Source: Streptomonospora nanhaiensis (GTDB lineage Bacteria > Actinomycetota > Actinomycetes > Streptosporangiales > Streptosporangiaceae). From it: a stretch of DNA of 64,000 bases. Shown one piece after another: positions 56,609-63,719 of this stretch. Numbering within the stretch: position 1 is the stretch's first letter; every line of letters starts with the position of its first letter. Under the pieces are notes generated by a model that was not told the DNA's origin, searched no databases, and saw nothing but the letters and a program-made list of their open reading frames with translations. The stretch spans positions 2,790,001 through 2,854,000 of the forward strand of contig NZ_JACCFO010000001.1 in NCBI RefSeq assembly GCF_013410565.1. The letters run 5' to 3'. The position numbers and the translations under genes are program-made.

Positions 56609-57730
56609 TCAGGGTTCCGCCCTCGGCGAGGCGGCTCCGCCGAAGAACCGGCGGGACCACAGGGAGACGTAGACCAGGCCGACCAGGACGGGAACCTCGA
56701 TCAGGGGGCCGACCACTCCGGCCAGGGCCTGGCCCGATGCCGCGCCGAACACGCCGATCGCGACGGCGATCGCCAGTTCGAAGTTGTTGCCGGCCGCCGT
56801 GAACGCCAGGGTGGCCGACCGCTCGTAGCCGAGACCGATCCAGCGGCCCAGCAGCAGCGACACGCCCCACATGACCACGAAGTAGGCCAGCAGCGGCAGC
56901 GCGATCCGGGCGACGTCCAGGGGGCGCGACGTGATGGCCTCGCCCTGGAGGGCGAACAGCATCACGATGGTGAACAGCAGGCCGTACAGCGCCAGCGGGC
57001 CGACGCGCGGTAGGAAGCGGTCCTCGTACCAGGTGCGGCCGCGCGTGCGTTCGGCGGCGGCGCGGGTGGCGAACCCGGCGGCCAGCGGGACTCCGAGGAA
57101 CACCGCGACCATGGCCGCGATCTCCCACGGCGAGACGTCGATGCCGCTGGTGTCCAGCCCCAGCCGGCCCGGCAGCAGGTCGAGGTAGAACCAGCCCAGG
57201 GCGCCGAACGCCACCACCTGGAACAGGGAGTTGAGGGCCACGAGCACGGCGGCCGCCTCGCGGTCGCCGCAGGCGAGGTCGTTCCAGATGACCACCATCG
57301 CGATGCAGCGGGCCAGCCCCACGATGATCAGCCCGGTGCGGAACTCCGGCAGGTCCGGCAGCAGCAGCCAGGCCAGGGCGAACATCAGCGCGGGCCCCAC
57401 CACCCAGTTGAGCACCAGCGAGGCGGCCAGCGTCCGGGTGTCGCGGGCGACCGCGCCCAGGCGGTCGTAGCGGACCTTGGCCAGCACCGGGTACATCATC
57501 AGCAGCAGGCCCAGGGCGATGGGCACGGAGATCCCGCCGACCTCCACCGCCTCCAGGGCCGCCGGCACCCCCGGCACCCAGCGGCCCAGCAGCAGGCCCG
57601 CGCCCATCGCCAGGCCGATCCACACCGGCAGGTAGCGGTCCAGGCGCGGCAGCGCCGCCGCGACCGGGGTCCCGGCGGGTGCGGCCGGTGCGGCGGGCCC
57701 GGCGGCCTTCGCCGCCCGCGCGCGGGCCAT
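56609..57730 (-). CDS. acr3: ACR3-family arsenite efflux permease
   Basis: This 373-residue protein with ten transmembrane segments carries the ACR3 signature: GLIIVGLARCIAMVVIWNDLACGD with the essential Cys, and GNNFELAIAVAIGVFG. It exports As(III) using the proton gradient. Its ATG 57730 overlaps the arsR stop by one base (TGATG), so the two are translationally coupled. Length and topology are normal. Confidence 0.95.
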   Translation of the reverse strand: MARARAAKAAGPAAPAAPAGTPVAAALPRLDRYLPVWIGLAMGAGLLLGRWVPGVPAALEAVEVGGISVPIALGLLLMMYPVLAKVRYDRLGAVARDTRTLAASLVLNWVVGPALMFALAWLLLPDLPEFRTGLIIVGLARCIAMVVIWNDLACGDREAAAVLVALNSLFQVVAFGALGWFYLDLLPGRLGLDTSGIDVSPWEIAAMVAVFLGVPLAAGFATRAAAERTRGRTWYEDRFLPRVGPLALYGLLFTIVMLFALQGEAITSRPLDVARIALPLLAYFVVMWGVSLLLGRWIGLGYERSATLAFTAAGNNFELAIAVAIGVFGAASGQALAGVVGPLIEVPVLVGLVYVSLWSRRFFGGAASPRAEP

Positions 57731-58035
57731 CAGCAGGCCCTCCGCGCCCGGCCACTGGCGCGGGCGACGGCGGCGAGTTCGGCGAAGCCCTCCGCGACCG
57801 CCTCCAGGGCCTCCGGGCGCAGCCGGTAGTAGGTGAACCGGCCGCACGGCTCGGTGTCGACCAGCCCGGCCTCGCGCAGCACGCGCAGGTGGTTGGACAG
57901 GTTGGTCTGGCGCGCCCCGGTCTCGGCCATGAGGTGGGTCGTACACAGGGTCTCGCGCGCGAGCAGGGCGAGAATCCGCTGCCGCAGGGGATCGCCCAGG
58001 GCGCGGATCACATCAGTGTCGACTGACATCAGCAT
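57730..58035 (-). CDS. arsR: ArsR/SmtB family arsenic-responsive repressor
   Basis: This 101-residue winged-helix repressor has DVIRALGDPLRQRILALLARETLCTTHLMAETGARQTNLSNHLRVLREAGLVDTEPCGRFTYYRL. Cysteines at the first helix region (ETLC) and EPCG plus a C-terminal Cys are candidate As(III) ligands. ATG 58035 or 58029 can start it; both lie within an operator copy. It is divergent from arsC across three dyads at 58012-58067 and feeds into acr3. Confidence 0.92.
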   Translation of the reverse strand: MLMSVDTDVIRALGDPLRQRILALLARETLCTTHLMAETGARQTNLSNHLRVLREAGLVDTEPCGRFTYYRLRPEALEAVAEGFAELAAVARASGRARRAC

Positions 58036-58067
58036 GGACTGATACTATCACATCAGCCGACGCTGAT
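58012..58067. promoter_or_regulatory. Three ArsR operator copies at arsR/arsC
   Basis: Three 16-bp dyads share the pattern ATCAG-N6-CTGAT: 58012-58027 (ATCAG-TGTCGA-CTGAC, one mismatch), 58028-58043 (ATCAG-CATGGA-CTGAT) and 58052-58067 (ATCAG-CCGACG-CTGAT). The first two abut without a gap and cover the arsR start. They sit between divergent arsR and arsC. Confidence 0.75.
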
Positions 58068-58600: not shown

Positions 58601-59659
58601 TCACCTTCCCGCCCCCACCCGCAGCCGGCGCAGGACATGGCGGGCGTCGCGCCCCACGCCGCGCAGGGTGGCCGAGCCGAAGCCGCGCTGGAACTCCAGC
58701 CCCACGTACCCCAGGCCGGGCACGGTGGTCGACACCCCGCCGCGGTGCAGGGGCCGCCCCTGGCCGTCGAGCGCGCCCGTGTCCGCGAGGTAGTCCAGGG
58801 CGGGCCGGTAGCCGGTGGCCAGGACGAGGGTGTCGACCTCCTCCACGGTGCCGTCGGCCCACTCGGCCTTGCTCCCGGACAGGCGGGTGAACATCTCCCG
58901 GCGGTCGGGGTTGCCCGTGGCGAACGCGGCGCGGTGGCGGCCGTCGTCGTTGACCAGGGTGGGGCCCTTCTCCCACACCCGGCGCAGCGGCGCGGCGTCC
59001 AGGCCGCTGCGCACGAACCACCAGTGGAGGTCGCGGCCCAGCAGCCGCCGGTTCGCCCACGCGATCGGGGACCGCGACGCCAGGCTGACGCGGGCCACGG
59101 CCGCGAGTTCGGCGGCGATCTGCACGCCGGAGTTGCCCCCGCCCACGACCACCACGCGCTGCCCGGCGAACGGCTCGGGGCGGCGGTAGTCGGCGGTGTG
59201 CAGGACGGTCCCGGTGAAGGTGCCGAGGCCGGGCAGGGCCGGACGGTGCGGCCGGGAGAAGGCGCCGGTGGCGGCCACCAGCGCCGCTCCCGTGAAGCGC
59301 TCGCCCTCGGTGGTGGTGACCGTGAATCCGCCGGGACCGGCCTGGACGGCGGCGGCCTTCCTGCGGCAGCGGATGTCGGCGTCCAGGTCGGCGGCGTAGG
59401 CGCGCAGGTAGGCCGTGATCTCGTCGCGCAGCGGGTAGCGGTCGCCCTCGCCCGGCAGCGCCCGCCCGGGCAGGGCGGAGAACCGGGCCGGGGAGAACAG
59501 GGTGAGGCTGTCGTAGTAGTGCGGCCAGGAGCCGCCGACGTCGGCGGCGGCCTCCAGCACCAGGGCGCGGACGCCGCGCCGCGCGGCGGCGTGCGCGGTG
59601 GCGAGTCCGGCCTGGCCGGCGCCGACGACGATCAGCGGGTGTTCGGGCGTTTCGGGCAT
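58601..59659 (-). CDS. FAD-dependent monooxygenase-like oxidoreductase (ars island flavoprotein 1)
   Basis: This 352-residue two-dinucleotide-domain flavoprotein has the FAD site LIVVGAGQAGLATAHAAARRG at its N-terminus and an NADPH-type site VVVVGGGNSGVQIAAELA near residue 165. LVLATGYRPALDYL follows, as in Baeyer-Villiger/flavin monooxygenase-like proteins often found in ars clusters (ArsO-like). GAGGAG precedes ATG 59659. It is the last gene of the minus-strand run from 62299. The substrate, possibly an arsenical, is not proven. Confidence 0.82.
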   Translation of the reverse strand: MPETPEHPLIVVGAGQAGLATAHAAARRGVRALVLEAAADVGGSWPHYYDSLTLFSPARFSALPGRALPGEGDRYPLRDEITAYLRAYAADLDADIRCRRKAAAVQAGPGGFTVTTTEGERFTGAALVAATGAFSRPHRPALPGLGTFTGTVLHTADYRRPEPFAGQRVVVVGGGNSGVQIAAELAAVARVSLASRSPIAWANRRLLGRDLHWWFVRSGLDAAPLRRVWEKGPTLVNDDGRHRAAFATGNPDRREMFTRLSGSKAEWADGTVEEVDTLVLATGYRPALDYLADTGALDGQGRPLHRGGVSTTVPGLGYVGLEFQRGFGSATLRGVGRDARHVLRRLRVGAGR

Positions 59660-59735
59660 GGCGTCTCCTCAAAAGGGCGGTGGGGTGAGCGCGGGGCGGG
59701 TGGCGCGCGGGCGGGCCGCCGCGTTGGGCAGCCGA

Positions 59736-60950
59736 TCAGGCGGGGCGGGGGTCGCCCCGGCCGCCCGCGCCGGCCGGGCGGGTCAGCGGGGCCAGCAGCG
59801 CCCCCGCCGCGCCGATCGCGGCCAGGACCGCGAACATCGCGGGGTAGACGCCCAGCAGCCCGGCGAGCGCGGCGCCGGCCCAGGGCGCCAGGGCGATGGC
59901 CAGCATGAGGGGGCTGTGCAGGATCCCGTTGAGGGCGGCGTAGCGGGCGGTGCCCCAGCGGTCGGCGACGGCGGTGGCCTGGAGCAGCGTGAAGATCCCG
60001 CGCGCCATCCCCGCCAGCAGGGACACGGCCATGACCAGGGCGAGCGGGCCGGTCACCACGGTCAGCAGCGCGGTGGAGGCGGCGCACGCCGCCAGCACGG
60101 CCACCGCCCGCGCGACCGGCCCGGCGCGGCGCTCCAGCGGCGCGTAGGCCAGGCGCCCCAGCACCTGCCCCACGCCGCCGACCCCCAGCGCCCACGCCGC
60201 GACCGCCGTGTCGAAGCCGCGCTCCCCCAGCAGCGGCACGATGTTGACCACGACCGCGTACACGCCGAAGGCGCCCAGGGTCAGCGCGGCGGTCAGCGCG
60301 AGGAACGCCCGGTCGGCCACGACCTCCCGCAGCCCGACCGCGCGCCCGGCCCCCGCCGCCCCGCCCGCCCCGCCCGCGGGCCGCCAGGGCGGGGTGAGCG
60401 CCGCCGCGTGCAGCGGGAGCACCACGCACAGCAGCACCAGGGCCAGCACCCCGTAGGCGCCGCGCCAGCCCAGCGCCGCCTCCAGAGCGGCGGTGAGCGG
60501 CGCGAACACCGTGCTGGACAGCCCGGCCACCAGGGTGAGCGCCGTCAGCGCCCGCACCCGCCCCTCGCCGAACCACCCGGTGATCGCGGCGAACGCCGGC
60601 GGGTAGAACAGCCCGGCAGTGGCCGCACCCGCCGCCAGCCACGCCAGGAAGAACACGGGCAGGCCGGGCGCCAGGGCGATCCCCGCGACGGCCGGGACGG
60701 CCAGCGCGGCGGCGGTGGTCATGACCGCGCGCGGTCCCGCCCGCTCCAGCCACCGCCCGACCGCGGCCTGCGCCAGCGCCGAGGTGACCTGCGCGGCGGA
60801 GTAGGCCGCGGTCACCGTGCCCAGCGACCATCCGGTGTCGGCGCTGATGGCCGGGGCCAGCACCGGGAAGGCGTACAGCAGCACGCCGTAGCTGGTGGTC
60901 ACGGTGACGCACAGCGCCACCAGCGCGCGGCGGGCCCCGGGGGCGCTCAC
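59736..60950 (-). CDS. MFS transporter (ars island)
   Basis: This 404-residue protein has twelve hydrophobic segments and the MFS motif A-like QAAVGRWLERAGPRAVM between TM2 and TM3. It starts at GTG 60950, overlapping the stop of the upstream flavoprotein (GTGA). Association with two flavoproteins and an ArsR-ArsN fusion suggests export of an arsenical or of an oxidised or acetylated product. The family alone does not fix the substrate. Confidence 0.85.
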   Translation of the reverse strand: MSAPGARRALVALCVTVTTSYGVLLYAFPVLAPAISADTGWSLGTVTAAYSAAQVTSALAQAAVGRWLERAGPRAVMTTAAALAVPAVAGIALAPGLPVFFLAWLAAGAATAGLFYPPAFAAITGWFGEGRVRALTALTLVAGLSSTVFAPLTAALEAALGWRGAYGVLALVLLCVVLPLHAAALTPPWRPAGGAGGAAGAGRAVGLREVVADRAFLALTAALTLGAFGVYAVVVNIVPLLGERGFDTAVAAWALGVGGVGQVLGRLAYAPLERRAGPVARAVAVLAACAASTALLTVVTGPLALVMAVSLLAGMARGIFTLLQATAVADRWGTARYAALNGILHSPLMLAIALAPWAGAALAGLLGVYPAMFAVLAAIGAAGALLAPLTRPAGAGGRGDPRPA

Positions 60951-62299
60951 GCCGGGACGCGGCCGGCCGGGCGGGTCAGCTGGATCAGGTCGGGCCCGGC
61001 GGCTTGGCAGCACCCGCCCTCGTCCGGGGCGTCGGCGGCCTCGGCCGCCTCGGCGAGCCCCGATCCCTTGCACACGCCGGTCTCGGGCAGGGTCAGCTCC
61101 ACCCGCGCCGCCGCCTCGTGGTCGCCCGCCAGCGCGGCGGCGACGCTGCGCACCTGCTCGAACCCGGTCAGCGCCAGAAACGTCGGCGCGCGCCCGTAGG
61201 ACTTCATCCCGGCCAGGTAGAACCCGGGCTCGGGGTGGGCCAGCTCGGCGGCGCCGTGCGGGTAGACGGTGCCGCAGGAGTGCACGTTGGGGTCGATCAG
61301 CGGCGCCAGGGCGACCGGCGCCTGGAGGGCGGGGTCCAGGCCGAGCCGGATTTCCGACAGCGGCGCCAGGTCGGGCCGGAACCCGGTCAGGGCGACGACC
61401 TCGTCCACCGGGTCCAGGCGGCGCCCGCCTTCGTCGGCGAGCACGATCCGCCCGCCCGCGCGGCCCACCTCGGCGGTGCGGAACCCGGTGACGACCTCGA
61501 CGTGCCCGGCCTCCACCGCCTCCCGCGCCCGCCGCCCCAGGGCCCCGCGCGCGGCGAGCCGGTCGGCGGTTCCGCCGCCGAAGGCGTCGCCGACCTCGCC
61601 GCGGCGCAGCACCCACACCGCGCGGGTGCCGGGCGCCTCCTCGGCGAGTCCGGCCAGCGCGACCAGGGCGGTCAGCGCCGAGTGCCCGCTGCCCGCCACG
61701 GCGGTGCGGCGCCCCGCGTAGCGGGCGCGGACGTCGGGGTCGGCCAGGTCGGGCACCCGGTAGGCGACGCGGTCGGCCGCCTCGGCCTCGCCGAGCGCGG
61801 GCAGGCCGTCGGCGCCCAGCGGGTTGGGCGATCCCCACGTGCCCGAGGCGTCCACCACCGCGCGGGCGGTGATCCGTTCGACGCCGCCTGCGGCCGGGCG
61901 CACGCGCACGGTGAACGGCTCGTCCGCGCGGCCGGCGTCCACGACCCGGTCACGGCCGCGCCGGCTCACGCCGACGACCTCGGCGCCCAGGCGCACCCGT
62001 TCGCCGAGCGCGGCGGCCAGCGGCTCCAGGTAGGCGGCGGCCCACTCCCGCCCGGTGGGGTAGGCGCCGTCGTCGGGCCGCGTCCAGCCGGTCGGCGCGA
62101 GCAGCCGCCCGGCGGCCGGGGCGACCAGGTCGCGCCAGGCGGAGAACAGCCGCACGTGCCCCCACTCGCGCACCGCCGCCCCGGCCGCGGCGCCCTTCTC
62201 CAGGACGAGCACCGGCAGCCCGCGCTCCGCCAACTCCGCCGCCGCGGCCAGGCCGACCGGACCGGCACCGATCACCACGATCGGGGTCCCCTCGCTCAT
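60947..62299 (-). CDS. FAD-dependent oxidoreductase with C-terminal Cys-Cys (ars island flavoprotein 2)
   Basis: This 450-residue flavoprotein starts with PIVVIGAGPVGLAAAAELAERGLPVLVLEKG. A second dinucleotide region has RRTAVAGSGHSALTALVALA, and VVALTGFRPDLAPLSEIRLGLDPALQAPVALAPLIDPNVHSCGTVYPHGAAELAHPEPGFYLAGMKSYGRAPTFLALTG is a block typical of ars-cluster oxidoreductases. The tail has Cys410 and vicinal Cys430-Cys431, a potential As(III) site. ATG 62299 is divergent from the ArsR-ArsN gene across three dyads. It is the first gene of a three-gene operon. Confidence 0.85.
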   Translation of the reverse strand: MSEGTPIVVIGAGPVGLAAAAELAERGLPVLVLEKGAAAGAAVREWGHVRLFSAWRDLVAPAAGRLLAPTGWTRPDDGAYPTGREWAAAYLEPLAAALGERVRLGAEVVGVSRRGRDRVVDAGRADEPFTVRVRPAAGGVERITARAVVDASGTWGSPNPLGADGLPALGEAEAADRVAYRVPDLADPDVRARYAGRRTAVAGSGHSALTALVALAGLAEEAPGTRAVWVLRRGEVGDAFGGGTADRLAARGALGRRAREAVEAGHVEVVTGFRTAEVGRAGGRIVLADEGGRRLDPVDEVVALTGFRPDLAPLSEIRLGLDPALQAPVALAPLIDPNVHSCGTVYPHGAAELAHPEPGFYLAGMKSYGRAPTFLALTGFEQVRSVAAALAGDHEAAARVELTLPETGVCKGSGLAEAAEAADAPDEGGCCQAAGPDLIQLTRPAGRVPA

Positions 62300-62311
62300 G
62301 CCGCCCCTTTC

Positions 62312-62383
62312 ATCGATGTATGTCGATTTAGCGTGCACTTTATCGACAACCATCAATGGACGCAACCATCGATTGTCGTCGAT
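62312..62383. promoter_or_regulatory. Three ArsR-ArsN operator copies
   Basis: 16-bp dyads ATCGA-N6-TCGAT occur at 62312-62327 (N6 TGTATG) and 62368-62383 (N6 TTGTCG), with a one-mismatch copy ATCGA-CAACCA-TCAAT at 62342-62357. They fill the 93-bp gap between the divergent flavoprotein operon and the ArsR-ArsN gene. The architecture equals that of the arsR dyads at 58012-58067, but the arm sequence differs. Confidence 0.75.
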
Positions 62384-62392
62384 AATGACGTC

Positions 62393-63277
62393 ATGAGCGC
62401 ACCGCCTCTTACCGGCTCCCTGCCGACCCTGGACGCCGCCGACGCCGAGACCTACGCCGCCTGGTTCGCCTGCCTGGCCGAACCCGCCCGGGTGCGGCTG
62501 CTGCACACGGTCGCCACCGCCCCCGGAGCGGTGACGGTGGGCGAACTCGCCGACGCGCTCGGCCTGCGCCAGCCCACGGTCTCCCACCACCTCCGCAAGC
62601 TGGCCGAGGCCGGGTTCGTCACCCTGACCAAGTCCGGCACCTCCACCCGCGTCATGGTCAACCCCGACTGCTGCAGCGGCCTGCCGCACGCCGCCGACGC
62701 CGTGATGGGCCTGCTGGCCGCCCGGCCGTGCTGCCCCGCCGACCTGCCGGCCGACGTCGCGGTACGCGCCATGGCCGACACCGACTTCCCCGCCGTGCTG
62801 CGGATCTACGCCGAGGGCATCGCCACCGGCAACGCCACGTTCGAGACCGAGACCCCCTCGGCGGAGGCCCTCGACGCCAAGTGGCTGCCCGGCCACCGCT
62901 GGGTCGCCGAGATCGACGGCGAGGTCGTGGGCTGGGCCGCCGCCACCCCCGTCTCCAGCCGCCCCGTCTACGCGGGGGTGGCCGAGACCTCCATCTACGT
63001 CTCGTCCGCCGCGCGCGGGCGCGGCGTGGGCAAGGTCCTGCTCCACCGCCAGGTCACCGCCGCCGACTCCGGGGGCCTGTGGACCCTGCAGACCGCGATC
63101 TTCCCCGAGAACAAGGCCAGCCTCGCCCTCCACCACAGCGCGGGGTTCCGCACGCTGGGGGTGCGCGAGCGCATCGGGCGCCACCACGGGGTCTGGCGCG
63201 ACACCGTGATGCTGGAGCGCCGCCGCGACGACACCCGCGCCGCCGGCGACTCCGGCACCGCCGAGGGCGGGTGCTGA
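62393..63277 (+). CDS. ArsR-ArsN fusion: arsenic-responsive repressor joined to a PAT-like N-acetyltransferase
   Basis: This 294-residue protein has two domains. Residues 15-115 are ArsR-like: WFACLAEPARVRLLHTV, then GELADALGLRQPTVSHHLRKLAEAGFVTL. Vicinal cysteine pairs C93-C94 and C113-C114 suit trivalent arsenic sensing. Residues 120-280 are a GNAT of the phosphinothricin acetyltransferase/ArsN1 type: VRAMADTDFPAVLRIYAEGIATGNATFETETPS, AETSIYVSSAARGRGVGKVLLHRQV, IFPENKASLALHHSAGFRTLGVRERIGRHHGVWRDTVMLER. ArsN1 acetylates the organoarsenical antibiotic arsinothricin. The ATG at 62393 lies 9 bp after an operator, so the message may be leaderless. Confidence 0.9.
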   Translation: MSAPPLTGSLPTLDAADAETYAAWFACLAEPARVRLLHTVATAPGAVTVGELADALGLRQPTVSHHLRKLAEAGFVTLTKSGTSTRVMVNPDCCSGLPHAADAVMGLLAARPCCPADLPADVAVRAMADTDFPAVLRIYAEGIATGNATFETETPSAEALDAKWLPGHRWVAEIDGEVVGWAAATPVSSRPVYAGVAETSIYVSSAARGRGVGKVLLHRQVTAADSGGLWTLQTAIFPENKASLALHHSAGFRTLGVRERIGRHHGVWRDTVMLERRRDDTRAAGDSGTAEGGC

Positions 63278-63326: not shown

Positions 63327-63719
63327 TCACACCGAGACCAGGACGACGACCCCCGCGGCCAGCAGGAAGTCCAGCACGGCACAGAACTCCGCCAGCGGGC
63401 GGTGCACCACCCGGTCCGCCCGCCAGTGCACGACGTCCCAGGCCGCGTGGCCGAACAGCACCGCGGCCACCAGGTAGCCGGCGAAGGGCAGCCCGCCGTA
63501 CTCGGCGACCAGCACCACCGCCGCCACGGCCGCCGTCTGCGGCAACTGCCAGCGGTACAGGCCGGGGCGCAGCAGCCGCCCGTTGACGAGGCCGGCCACC
63601 GCCGTCACGGCGGCGAGCGGCCCCACCACCGCCGGGTAGCCGACGCCGAGGTACTCGGCGGCCTGCGCGAGGGCCAGCAGCACCAGCATGACCGGCCAGA
63701 CGGCGAGGGGCCGGCCCAC
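63327..63719 (-). CDS. Small membrane protein, unknown function, possibly 5'-truncated
   Basis: The 130-residue frame from GTG 63719 has four hydrophobic segments (WPVMLVLLALAQAAEYLGVGYPAVVG; VGPLAAVTAVAGLV; TAAVAAVVLVAEY; FCAVLDFLLAAGVVVLVSV). No family with known function is recognised. No ribosome site precedes the GTG, and the sequence upstream belongs to an apparently headless gene on the other strand. The start may therefore be lost at a junction near 63720. Confidence 0.62.
   Translation of the reverse strand: MGRPLAVWPVMLVLLALAQAAEYLGVGYPAVVGPLAAVTAVAGLVNGRLLRPGLYRWQLPQTAAVAAVVLVAEYGGLPFAGYLVAAVLFGHAAWDVVHWRADRVVHRPLAEFCAVLDFLLAAGVVVLVSV

Follow-up and report, generated by a model that had tools for sequence, protein, structure and literature searches.

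What does an arsenic repressor respond to when it is fused to an acetyltransferase, and how is such a protein connected with the genes beside it? The question is raised by a locus of Streptomonospora nanhaiensis, situated in a stretch of 64,000 nucleotides (contig NZ_JACCFO010000001.1, positions 2,790,001 to 2,854,000; "the window" hereafter) within one contig of the 6.28-Mb genome. All coordinates are those of the window. Here an operon of flavoprotein 1, an exporter of the major facilitator superfamily (MFS) and flavoprotein 2 is divergent from the gene of an ArsR-ArsN fusion, whose second half is a GNAT acetyltransferase (Table 1). This arrangement had been proposed in an initial annotation made from the letters alone; the open reading frames (ORFs) and the ArsR and GNAT domain matches bear it out. 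The module is real, conserved and cleanly organised. With a probability of roughly 0.58 we read it as a self-regulated organoarsenical resistance module, which would combine a fused repressor-enzyme and a triple operator with oxidation, export and acetylation.

For comparison 81 loci were collected, the window and the best 80 of 126 relatives; they were confirmed by patterns from the window fusion, and the set leans to close kin. Flavoprotein 1 was divergent within 200 bp of the fusion in 71 of the 81 loci. For L112 only 959 bases upstream were available, so the absence of flavoprotein 1 is not certain there, and other flanks were cut by contig ends too. Across the loci the tight pair is the fusion and flavoprotein 1; not every locus shows the gene order of the window. 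The closest named relative of the window fusion was found in Streptomonospora mangrovi (90% identity).

Across the phylum Actinomycetota the fusion is rare. Used as query, it matched 6 of 396 sampled genomes at E 1e-60, five of them (the window's included) with a fused gene and one (G306) with a stop between the halves, and flavoprotein 1 matched 21 of 396 at E 1e-70, again with the window's genome included. Among genomes of the same family, 33 of 200 (the window's included) matched at at least 55% identity over at least 200 residues, and two matches were partial; these were counted by eye, and a single open frame was confirmed for part of them. Fused rows of the tree described below came from six named families, Nocardiopsidaceae, Pseudonocardiaceae, Nocardiaceae, Nocardioidaceae, Glycomycetaceae and Promicromonosporaceae, the last represented by L094, which is without flavoprotein 1. 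In this locus of Promicromonospora umidemergens the divergent neighbour of the fusion is flavoprotein 2-like (56%) and no homologue of flavoprotein 1; three dyads are kept. Large Rhodococcus plasmids carry the fusion as well; in R. opacus B4 three exact dyads accompany a fusion gene that is divergent from flavoprotein 1-MFS. In a plasmid collection 1051 Klebsiella records matched part of the fusion.

The divergent promoter contains three ATCGA-N6-TCGAT dyads, as annotated initially, the middle one with one mismatch. Exact copies occur twice in the genome, both in the gap between the fusion and flavoprotein 1. At one mismatch 16 further genomic sites lie elsewhere, and at up to two mismatches no excess was found in the whole window (6 found vs 9.2 expected). 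Hence, the case for an operator rests on exactness, clustering and conservation. In the 71 divergent promoters dyads within one mismatch were present at least twice in 69 and at least three times in 59. Mononucleotide shuffles of these promoters, which preserve single-base content only, gave at least two dyads in 0/7100 and one dyad in 23/7100. Exactness, clustering and conservation (69/71 promoters vs 0/7100 shuffles) led us to reject a chance origin of the dyads. With up to two mismatches allowed per dyad, 20-42 bp between dyads 1 and 2 and 22-30 bp between dyads 2 and 3, the triple was detected in 65/71 promoters. In these promoters dyads 1 and 2 were separated by 24-37 bp, and dyads 2 and 3 were exactly 26 bp apart in 60/65. 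Regarding a wider regulon, one of the 16 one-mismatch sites (6006655) was opened; near it are ORFs that on visual inspection resemble TetR and a short-chain dehydrogenase.

The 61 promoters selected for the 26-bp spacing of dyads 2 and 3 were aligned. A GCAACC block between the two dyads was conserved, its CAA in 61/61 of these selected promoters, and this conservation suggests two overlapping -35 elements standing back to back. Read toward the fusion, the consensus is TTGAYG (TGGACG in the window), 18 bp and GATANT; read toward flavoprotein 1, it is TTGCRT (TTGCGT in the window), 17 bp and TANAGT. The fixed spacing of dyads 2 and 3 would be set by this promoter geometry. The first in-frame start codon was located 25-29 nt from the start of dyad 3 in 49/61 promoters. 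Since this is only 6-10 nt past the putative -10, a leaderless fusion transcript is suggested, with a predicted start at or near the ATG.

Table 1. Features of the fusion module and its neighbourhood (window coordinates; promoter elements are predicted)
Feature	Position	Strand	Remarks
ArsR-ArsN fusion gene	62393-63277	+	294 amino acids; ATG at 62393, stop at 63277
Parts of the fusion			ArsR half, winged helix, residues ~12-90; hinge, residues 91-120; GNAT half, residues 122-276
Operator dyad 1	62312-62327		ATCGATGTATGTCGAT, exact; just downstream of the predicted flavoprotein 1 start site
Operator dyad 2	62342-62357		ATCGACAACCATCAAT, one mismatch; inside the predicted -35/-10 spacer of the flavoprotein 1 promoter
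Operator dyad 3	62368-62383		ATCGATTGTCGTCGAT, exact; inside the predicted spacer of the fusion promoter, overlaps its -10
Predicted fusion promoter	62357-62386	+	-35 TGGACG 62357-62362, 18-bp spacer, -10 GATAAT 62381-62386; from conserved columns of 61 aligned promoters
Predicted flavoprotein 1 promoter	62337-62365	-	-35 TTGCGT 62365-62360, 17-bp spacer, -10 TAAAGT 62342-62337; from conserved columns of 61 promoters
Operon flavoprotein 1-MFS-flavoprotein 2	62299-58601	-	divergent from the fusion gene
Flavoprotein 1	60947-62299	-	ArsV-like by neighbourhood; two Rossmann motifs, GAGPVG and GSGHSA; C342, C410, C430-C431
MFS exporter	59736-60950	-	GTG start, 4-nt overlap with flavoprotein 1; best NCBIfam model ArsK
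Flavoprotein 2	58601-59659	-	ArsO-like oxidoreductase
Neighbouring first arsenic module, acr3-arsR	56609-58035	-	
Neighbouring first arsenic module, arsC	ending 58540	+	

The first arsenic module adjoins the operon. Its arsR-acr3 genes are preceded by three ATCAG-N6-CTGAT dyads within 58012-58067, one of them with one mismatch; the latter overlaps the arsR coding start. Relatives of this arsR were taken at at least 52% identity with the match starting within the first 15 residues (n=19, the window counted). A dyad of the ATCAG-N6-CTGAT kind was located upstream of 19/19, within one mismatch in 16 and with two in 3, a count made without a shuffle control; a dyad of the fusion type within one mismatch was found upstream of 0/19. 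The separate control of the two modules claimed initially is therefore well supported, because the arsR-acr3 operators carry other arms in 19/19 loci within two mismatches. A common layout of the two sets of dyads had also been claimed. The 5-6-5 shape is indeed shared, but the spacing differs (62312/62342/62368 vs 58012/58028/58052). On the other side, a small membrane-like protein (63327-63719, minus strand) with a weak DUF6010 match under the cut-off adjoins the fusion; it is 80% identical to a protein at the equivalent place in Streptomonospora mangrovi (L033).

The ArsR half matched NF033788 with 62.8 bits, above the curated cut-off of 55, and this model matched 36/36 members scanned at E 1e-10 or better. 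Two vicinal cysteine pairs, already pointed out initially, were confirmed as C93-C94 and C113-C114. All four residues are intact in 78/81 fusions and would form the metalloid site expected of an ArsR/SmtB protein. Broken pairs were found exclusively in loci without flavoprotein 1 (3/10 vs 0/71; L085, L109 and L111; Fisher p 0.0014); the Fisher tests used here ignore phylogeny, and L109 and L111 are both from Saccharothrix. In an AlphaFold2 model of the fusion (mean predicted local distance difference test score 84.0) the DNA-binding and GNAT domains were confident. The hinge of residues 91-120, which holds all four cysteines, was of low confidence, with block means of 57, 49 and 59. Binding of As(III) is reported to order the binding region of AfArsR in the part of the source available (PMC11212059), and the conserved, low-confidence hinge of the fusion recalls that region.

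Known ArsR sites are, according to the accessible sections of two reports, C32/34/37 in R773, C95/96/102 in AfArsR, C15/16/55 in CgArsR and C101-102 in SpArsR (PMC11868830, PMC13236881). The fusion resembles these types as a winged-helix repressor with vicinal cysteines, which are placed C-terminally as in AfArsR and SpArsR. It differs in that its two CC pairs, separated by 20 residues, sit in a hinge leading into an enzyme. Unfused ArsR proteins of Streptomyces F12, Streptomyces FR-008 and Arthrobacter D5-1 are CgArsR-like, having a CC near the N-terminus and a CVC motif; both are lacking in the fused ArsR, which differs from CgArsR in this respect. A second unfused ArsR type (L134, L144) has the hinge motif of the fusion (PTAADVVMG vs PHAADAVMG) with one or two cysteines before it. 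The fusion may have recruited this ArsR type rather than rebuilt a site. A simple re-siting of a CgArsR-type site was not established, as the unfused L134 and L144 already carry the fused hinge motif. Regarding the ligand, the one ArsR tested gave no response to pentavalent species in the accessible part of the report (PMC11868830), and the cysteine site of the fusion is expected to sense trivalent arsenicals. Two fusions, L146 (G192) and L147 (G134), have an ArsR half without cysteine and keep the GNAT half. For these no dyad within one mismatch was found in 400 upstream bases and no flavoprotein 1 in the fetched stretch; their repressor domain may have lost its job.

The GNAT half matched Pfam PF00583, and its best curated enzyme model was ArsN1 family A (NF040503), which matched 36/36 members scanned at E 1e-10 or better. 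Phosphinothricin acetyltransferases were the closest solved structures; the initial assignment to the ArsN/phosphinothricin acetyltransferase type was retained. G211 and G213 of the coenzyme A (CoA) motif were present in 81/81 fusions, as were E198 and W268. In PpArsN1 roles are described for Arg75, Arg77 and Tyr80, with Arg75 gating arsinothricin, according to the sections available (PMC6465285). When the motif R-x-R-x-x-Y is aligned by eye, Arg77 and Tyr80 of PpArsN1 find their counterparts in R190 and Y193. Standalone GNAT relatives (53-60%) in the same family had homologues of ars genes within ~3 kb in 10/14 loci opened, two of the ten counted by an ArsR-family match alone. Thus, the likeness to ArsN1 (PpArsN1, NF040503/NF040504) comprises the GNAT domain, the CoA motif, the residues like Arg77 and Tyr80 and the ars context. 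Catalysis of acetylation by the GNAT half is plausible.

In the alignment of flavoprotein 1 (71 rows) C342 was present in all rows and C410 in 0.99 of them, and a CC occurred somewhere in the tail of 64/71. Homologues at 44-50% identity from Ensifer, Arthrobacter and Cytobacillus keep LPETGVC (C410) and a CC. Identification of flavoprotein 1 as ArsO was rejected (40.2 bits vs a cut-off of 425, NF040505). By tblastn, homologues with 47-54% identity were detected on proteobacterial plasmids. In five of seven such loci opened (Neotabrizicola, Afipia, Hydrogenophaga, Ensifer and Rhizobium) they stand between arsR and an MFS gene, and in Ensifer and Rhizobium the MFS gene is annotated as arsK. Of the other two, Roseomonas has PadR replacing arsR, and Sinorhizobium is unannotated with the same order by tblastn. 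Three proteobacterial MFS proteins not named ArsK had ArsK as best model, with 200.5, 219.7 and 228.2 bits, under the cut-off of 400.

In Ensifer and Paracoccus resistance to methylarsenite is provided by the flavin monooxygenase ArsV together with an MFS exporter, ArsW or ArsK; methylarsenite is oxidised by ArsV, and what results leaves the cell through the transporter. The arsR-flavoprotein-MFS layout presumably matches arsV with arsW or arsK. The operon setting of ArsV, in which arsR and an MFS gene (arsK-like or of another kind) accompany it, was found for the proteobacterial homologues, and in 46/71 actinobacterial loci the MFS is next to flavoprotein 1. The flavoprotein 1-MFS pair looks like ArsV-ArsW or ArsV-ArsK, with a flavoprotein followed by an ArsK-like MFS under arsR; the Ensifer homologue (47%) lies beside arsK and has a Cys-rich tail. 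In contrast to these systems, the regulator of the window is fused to GNAT and divergent, and the window MFS has only 27% identity to Ensifer ArsK. A homologue of flavoprotein 1 (67%) with an MFS also adjoins the arsRBOCT set of Streptomyces FR-008 on pSSFR1, but there the ArsR is unfused and CgArsR-like, and no arsN is found in the 12 kb shown. Near ArsN1a, homologues of flavoprotein 1 were detected in Cytobacillus and Paenibacillus. Flavoprotein 2 has 38.6% identity to ArsO of Streptomyces FR-008 vs 55-59% to a second ArsO-like gene adjoining flavoprotein 1 in Streptomyces.

Several results weigh against an organoarsenical module built in this way. For the GNAT half the score on ArsN1a was 134.5 bits, under the cut-off of 170; two unfused neighbours, with 138.0 and 120.4 bits, were likewise under 170. 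The phosphinothricin acetyltransferases reached 88 bits, and 5jtf, which we take to be PpArsN1, reached 35.2 bits. The position of Arg75 of PpArsN1 is occupied by Ser in 80/81 fusions by the same alignment by eye. The GNAT half thus differs from ArsN1 by its fusion to ArsR, by scores under the curated cut-offs and by this Ser.

The Ser and the far better match to phosphinothricin acetyltransferases than to 5jtf are in line with a GNAT half that is no arsinothricin enzyme. It would then acetylate another glutamate or sulfoximine analogue, or it would serve the repressor as a domain that senses a ligand or CoA. L146 and L147, with GNAT kept beside a Cys-free ArsR half, agree with this, as selection may maintain the enzyme independently of the switch. 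However, the ars-gene homologues within ~3 kb of 10/14 standalone relatives (two by ArsR-family match alone) speak against it, and we regard this explanation as very improbable.

The opposite extreme is a module dedicated to arsinothricin, in which arsinothricin or a reduced trivalent form would be the inducer, GNAT the main enzyme, and the operon would dispose of trivalent derivatives. It could draw on the ArsN1a match in 36/36 members scanned. Arsinothricin is pentavalent, however, and the GNAT half, under the ArsN1a cut-off, has not kept the equivalent of Arg75. Moreover, flavoprotein 1-MFS pairs occur without arsN in the stretch shown in Streptomyces FR-008, Afipia and Hydrogenophaga. In favour, ArsN1 is reported to give arsinothricin resistance in P. 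putida in the portion of that study available (PMC6465285). Against it, the cysteine site would need a trivalent ligand, judged by the single ArsR described in the accessible part of PMC11868830. We hold such dedication to be quite unlikely. The initial annotation had proposed a dedicated response to an organoarsenical antibiotic. Its organoarsenical flavour persists, with flavoprotein 1 and the MFS resembling ArsV-ArsW/ArsK; dedication to a single antibiotic is possible but not favoured.

Further points against the organoarsenical reading concern the operon. An MFS gene was found beside flavoprotein 1 in 46/71 loci and flavoprotein 2 next in 17/71; for the 25/71 loci without a detected MFS the downstream ORFs were listed by G+C content at third codon positions (GC3) only. 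Seven of the 71 flavoprotein 1 sequences, one a truncated ORF (L056), are without the tail CC. The window MFS scored 139.7 bits on ArsK (NF033733; cut-off 400) and flavoprotein 2 scored 241.8 bits on ArsO (NF040505; cut-off 425). At E 1e-12 none of the NCBIfam models matched the MFS of the Cytobacillus locus, and in Mammaliicoccus the stretch shown around the homologue of flavoprotein 1 contains no MFS gene and no arsN. The likeness of the flavoprotein 1-MFS pair to ArsV systems is one of neighbourhood, and the promoter elements and the leaderless start are themselves inferred.

Finally, acr3 or arsC was present in the fetched flank of 49/71 loci with flavoprotein 1 vs 1/10 without it (Fisher p 0.0006), which suits inorganic arsenic equally well. 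As(III) needs three ligands and R-As(III) two; the four cysteines could supply three. Both points would agree with an accessory inorganic-arsenic module induced by As(III), whose flavoproteins and MFS would help with As(III)/Sb(III). However, the adjacent arsR-acr3-arsC set already does this job under a different operator, and arsN and the ArsK-like transporters point to organic species. An accessory role of this kind appears unlikely. Against the initial wording "rather than inorganic arsenic", acr3 or arsC in 49/71 loci leave inorganic As(III) as a possible inducer. Overall, the locus probably answers to trivalent (organo)arsenicals and brings an ArsN1-like enzyme along with the response.

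Streptomyces NBC_00984 has all five functions unfused, arranged as MFS-flavoprotein 1 on one strand and, divergent from it, flavoprotein 2-arsR-arsN. A 4-nt overlap links arsR to arsN in Herbiconiux, where three dyads of the fusion type were located in the gap toward flavoprotein 1. In a GNAT tree 84 of the fused rows fell on the same side, though support for this was not strong (90/49), whereas L148 and L149, two fusions that carry a different ArsR, appeared among unfused rows in a 24-row fork (support 98/93). The tree needs three changes between fused and unfused labels, at least two of them forced by starred branches. The approximately unbiased (AU) test against one clade gave p 0.027, on a subset of 20/86 fused rows and 22/24 unfused rows and with the group picked after seeing the tree. 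A single origin of the fusion is opposed by these label changes and the AU test, with moderate strength. From the placement of L148 and L149 and the AU result, the fusion probably arose at least twice, a conclusion of moderate strength. The ArsR half of L148 (G029) and L149 (G013) has a Cys at the hinge start, no CC pair and a Pro/Ala-rich linker, and their fusion is apparently independent.

Fusions of ArsR to arsenic enzymes appear to recur. ArsRM of Brevundimonas sp. M20 is ArsR fused to an As methyltransferase and binds its own promoter, according to the available text (PMC10190100). It resembles the present fusion in uniting repressor and arsenic enzyme in one chain and differs in enzyme, operator and operon. 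Near the unfused arsR-arsN of Arthrobacter and Paenarthrobacter, ArsR is fused to a phosphatase in an ArsR-ArsC-like protein (L116 5407-6081, L155 5431-6105). No description of an ArsR-ArsN fusion was found in searches of the open-licence literature, which omits most subscription papers; in the accessible text of PMC10190100 "ArsR-ArsN" occurs once, within the gene order arsH-arsR-arsN-arsB-arsC. In general, the parts of the module seem to be known by family resemblance, below curated cut-offs, and their fusion is unusual.

The organoarsenical resistance module would work as follows. Dimers of the fusion would occupy the dyads and shut off both promoters, dyads 2 and 3 lying in the spacers of the presumed back-to-back promoters and dyad 1 just past the predicted operon start site. 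The cysteine pairs of the hinge would bind a trivalent arsenical, whereupon the protein would be released; methylarsenite or some other R-As(III) is the likeliest ligand, As(III) a possible one. Flavoprotein 1, if ArsV-like, would convert the trivalent organoarsenical by oxidation into a pentavalent product of lower toxicity. Its export would fall to the ArsK/ArsW-like MFS, and flavoprotein 2 (ArsO-like) would have some oxidative role. The GNAT half would acetylate an amino acid similar to arsinothricin at its alpha-amino group. With sensor and enzyme as one polypeptide, the amount of enzyme would follow the derepression of the fusion gene itself, which is probably leaderless. As to arsenic methylation in the host, NF008823 (PRK11873.1), which we take to be the arsenite methyltransferase model, had 24 matches in the genome, none above the cut-off. 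A bolder version makes the hinge a metalloid switch: R-As(III), once bound by both cysteine pairs, would order it, free the protein from the three operators and license the acetyltransferase, giving a new ArsR site type in fusions that arose repeatedly. This proposal is tentative and on the doubtful side.

Responses to organoarsenical warfare and the roles of ArsN in ars operons are only partly known. The present actinobacterial module would physically join an arsenic switch with an enzyme like ArsN and couple it to an oxidation and efflux pair of the ArsV kind. Its sharply defined, conserved promoter makes the module readily testable, and organoarsenical biosensing would gain a sensor whose cysteines are unusually arranged.

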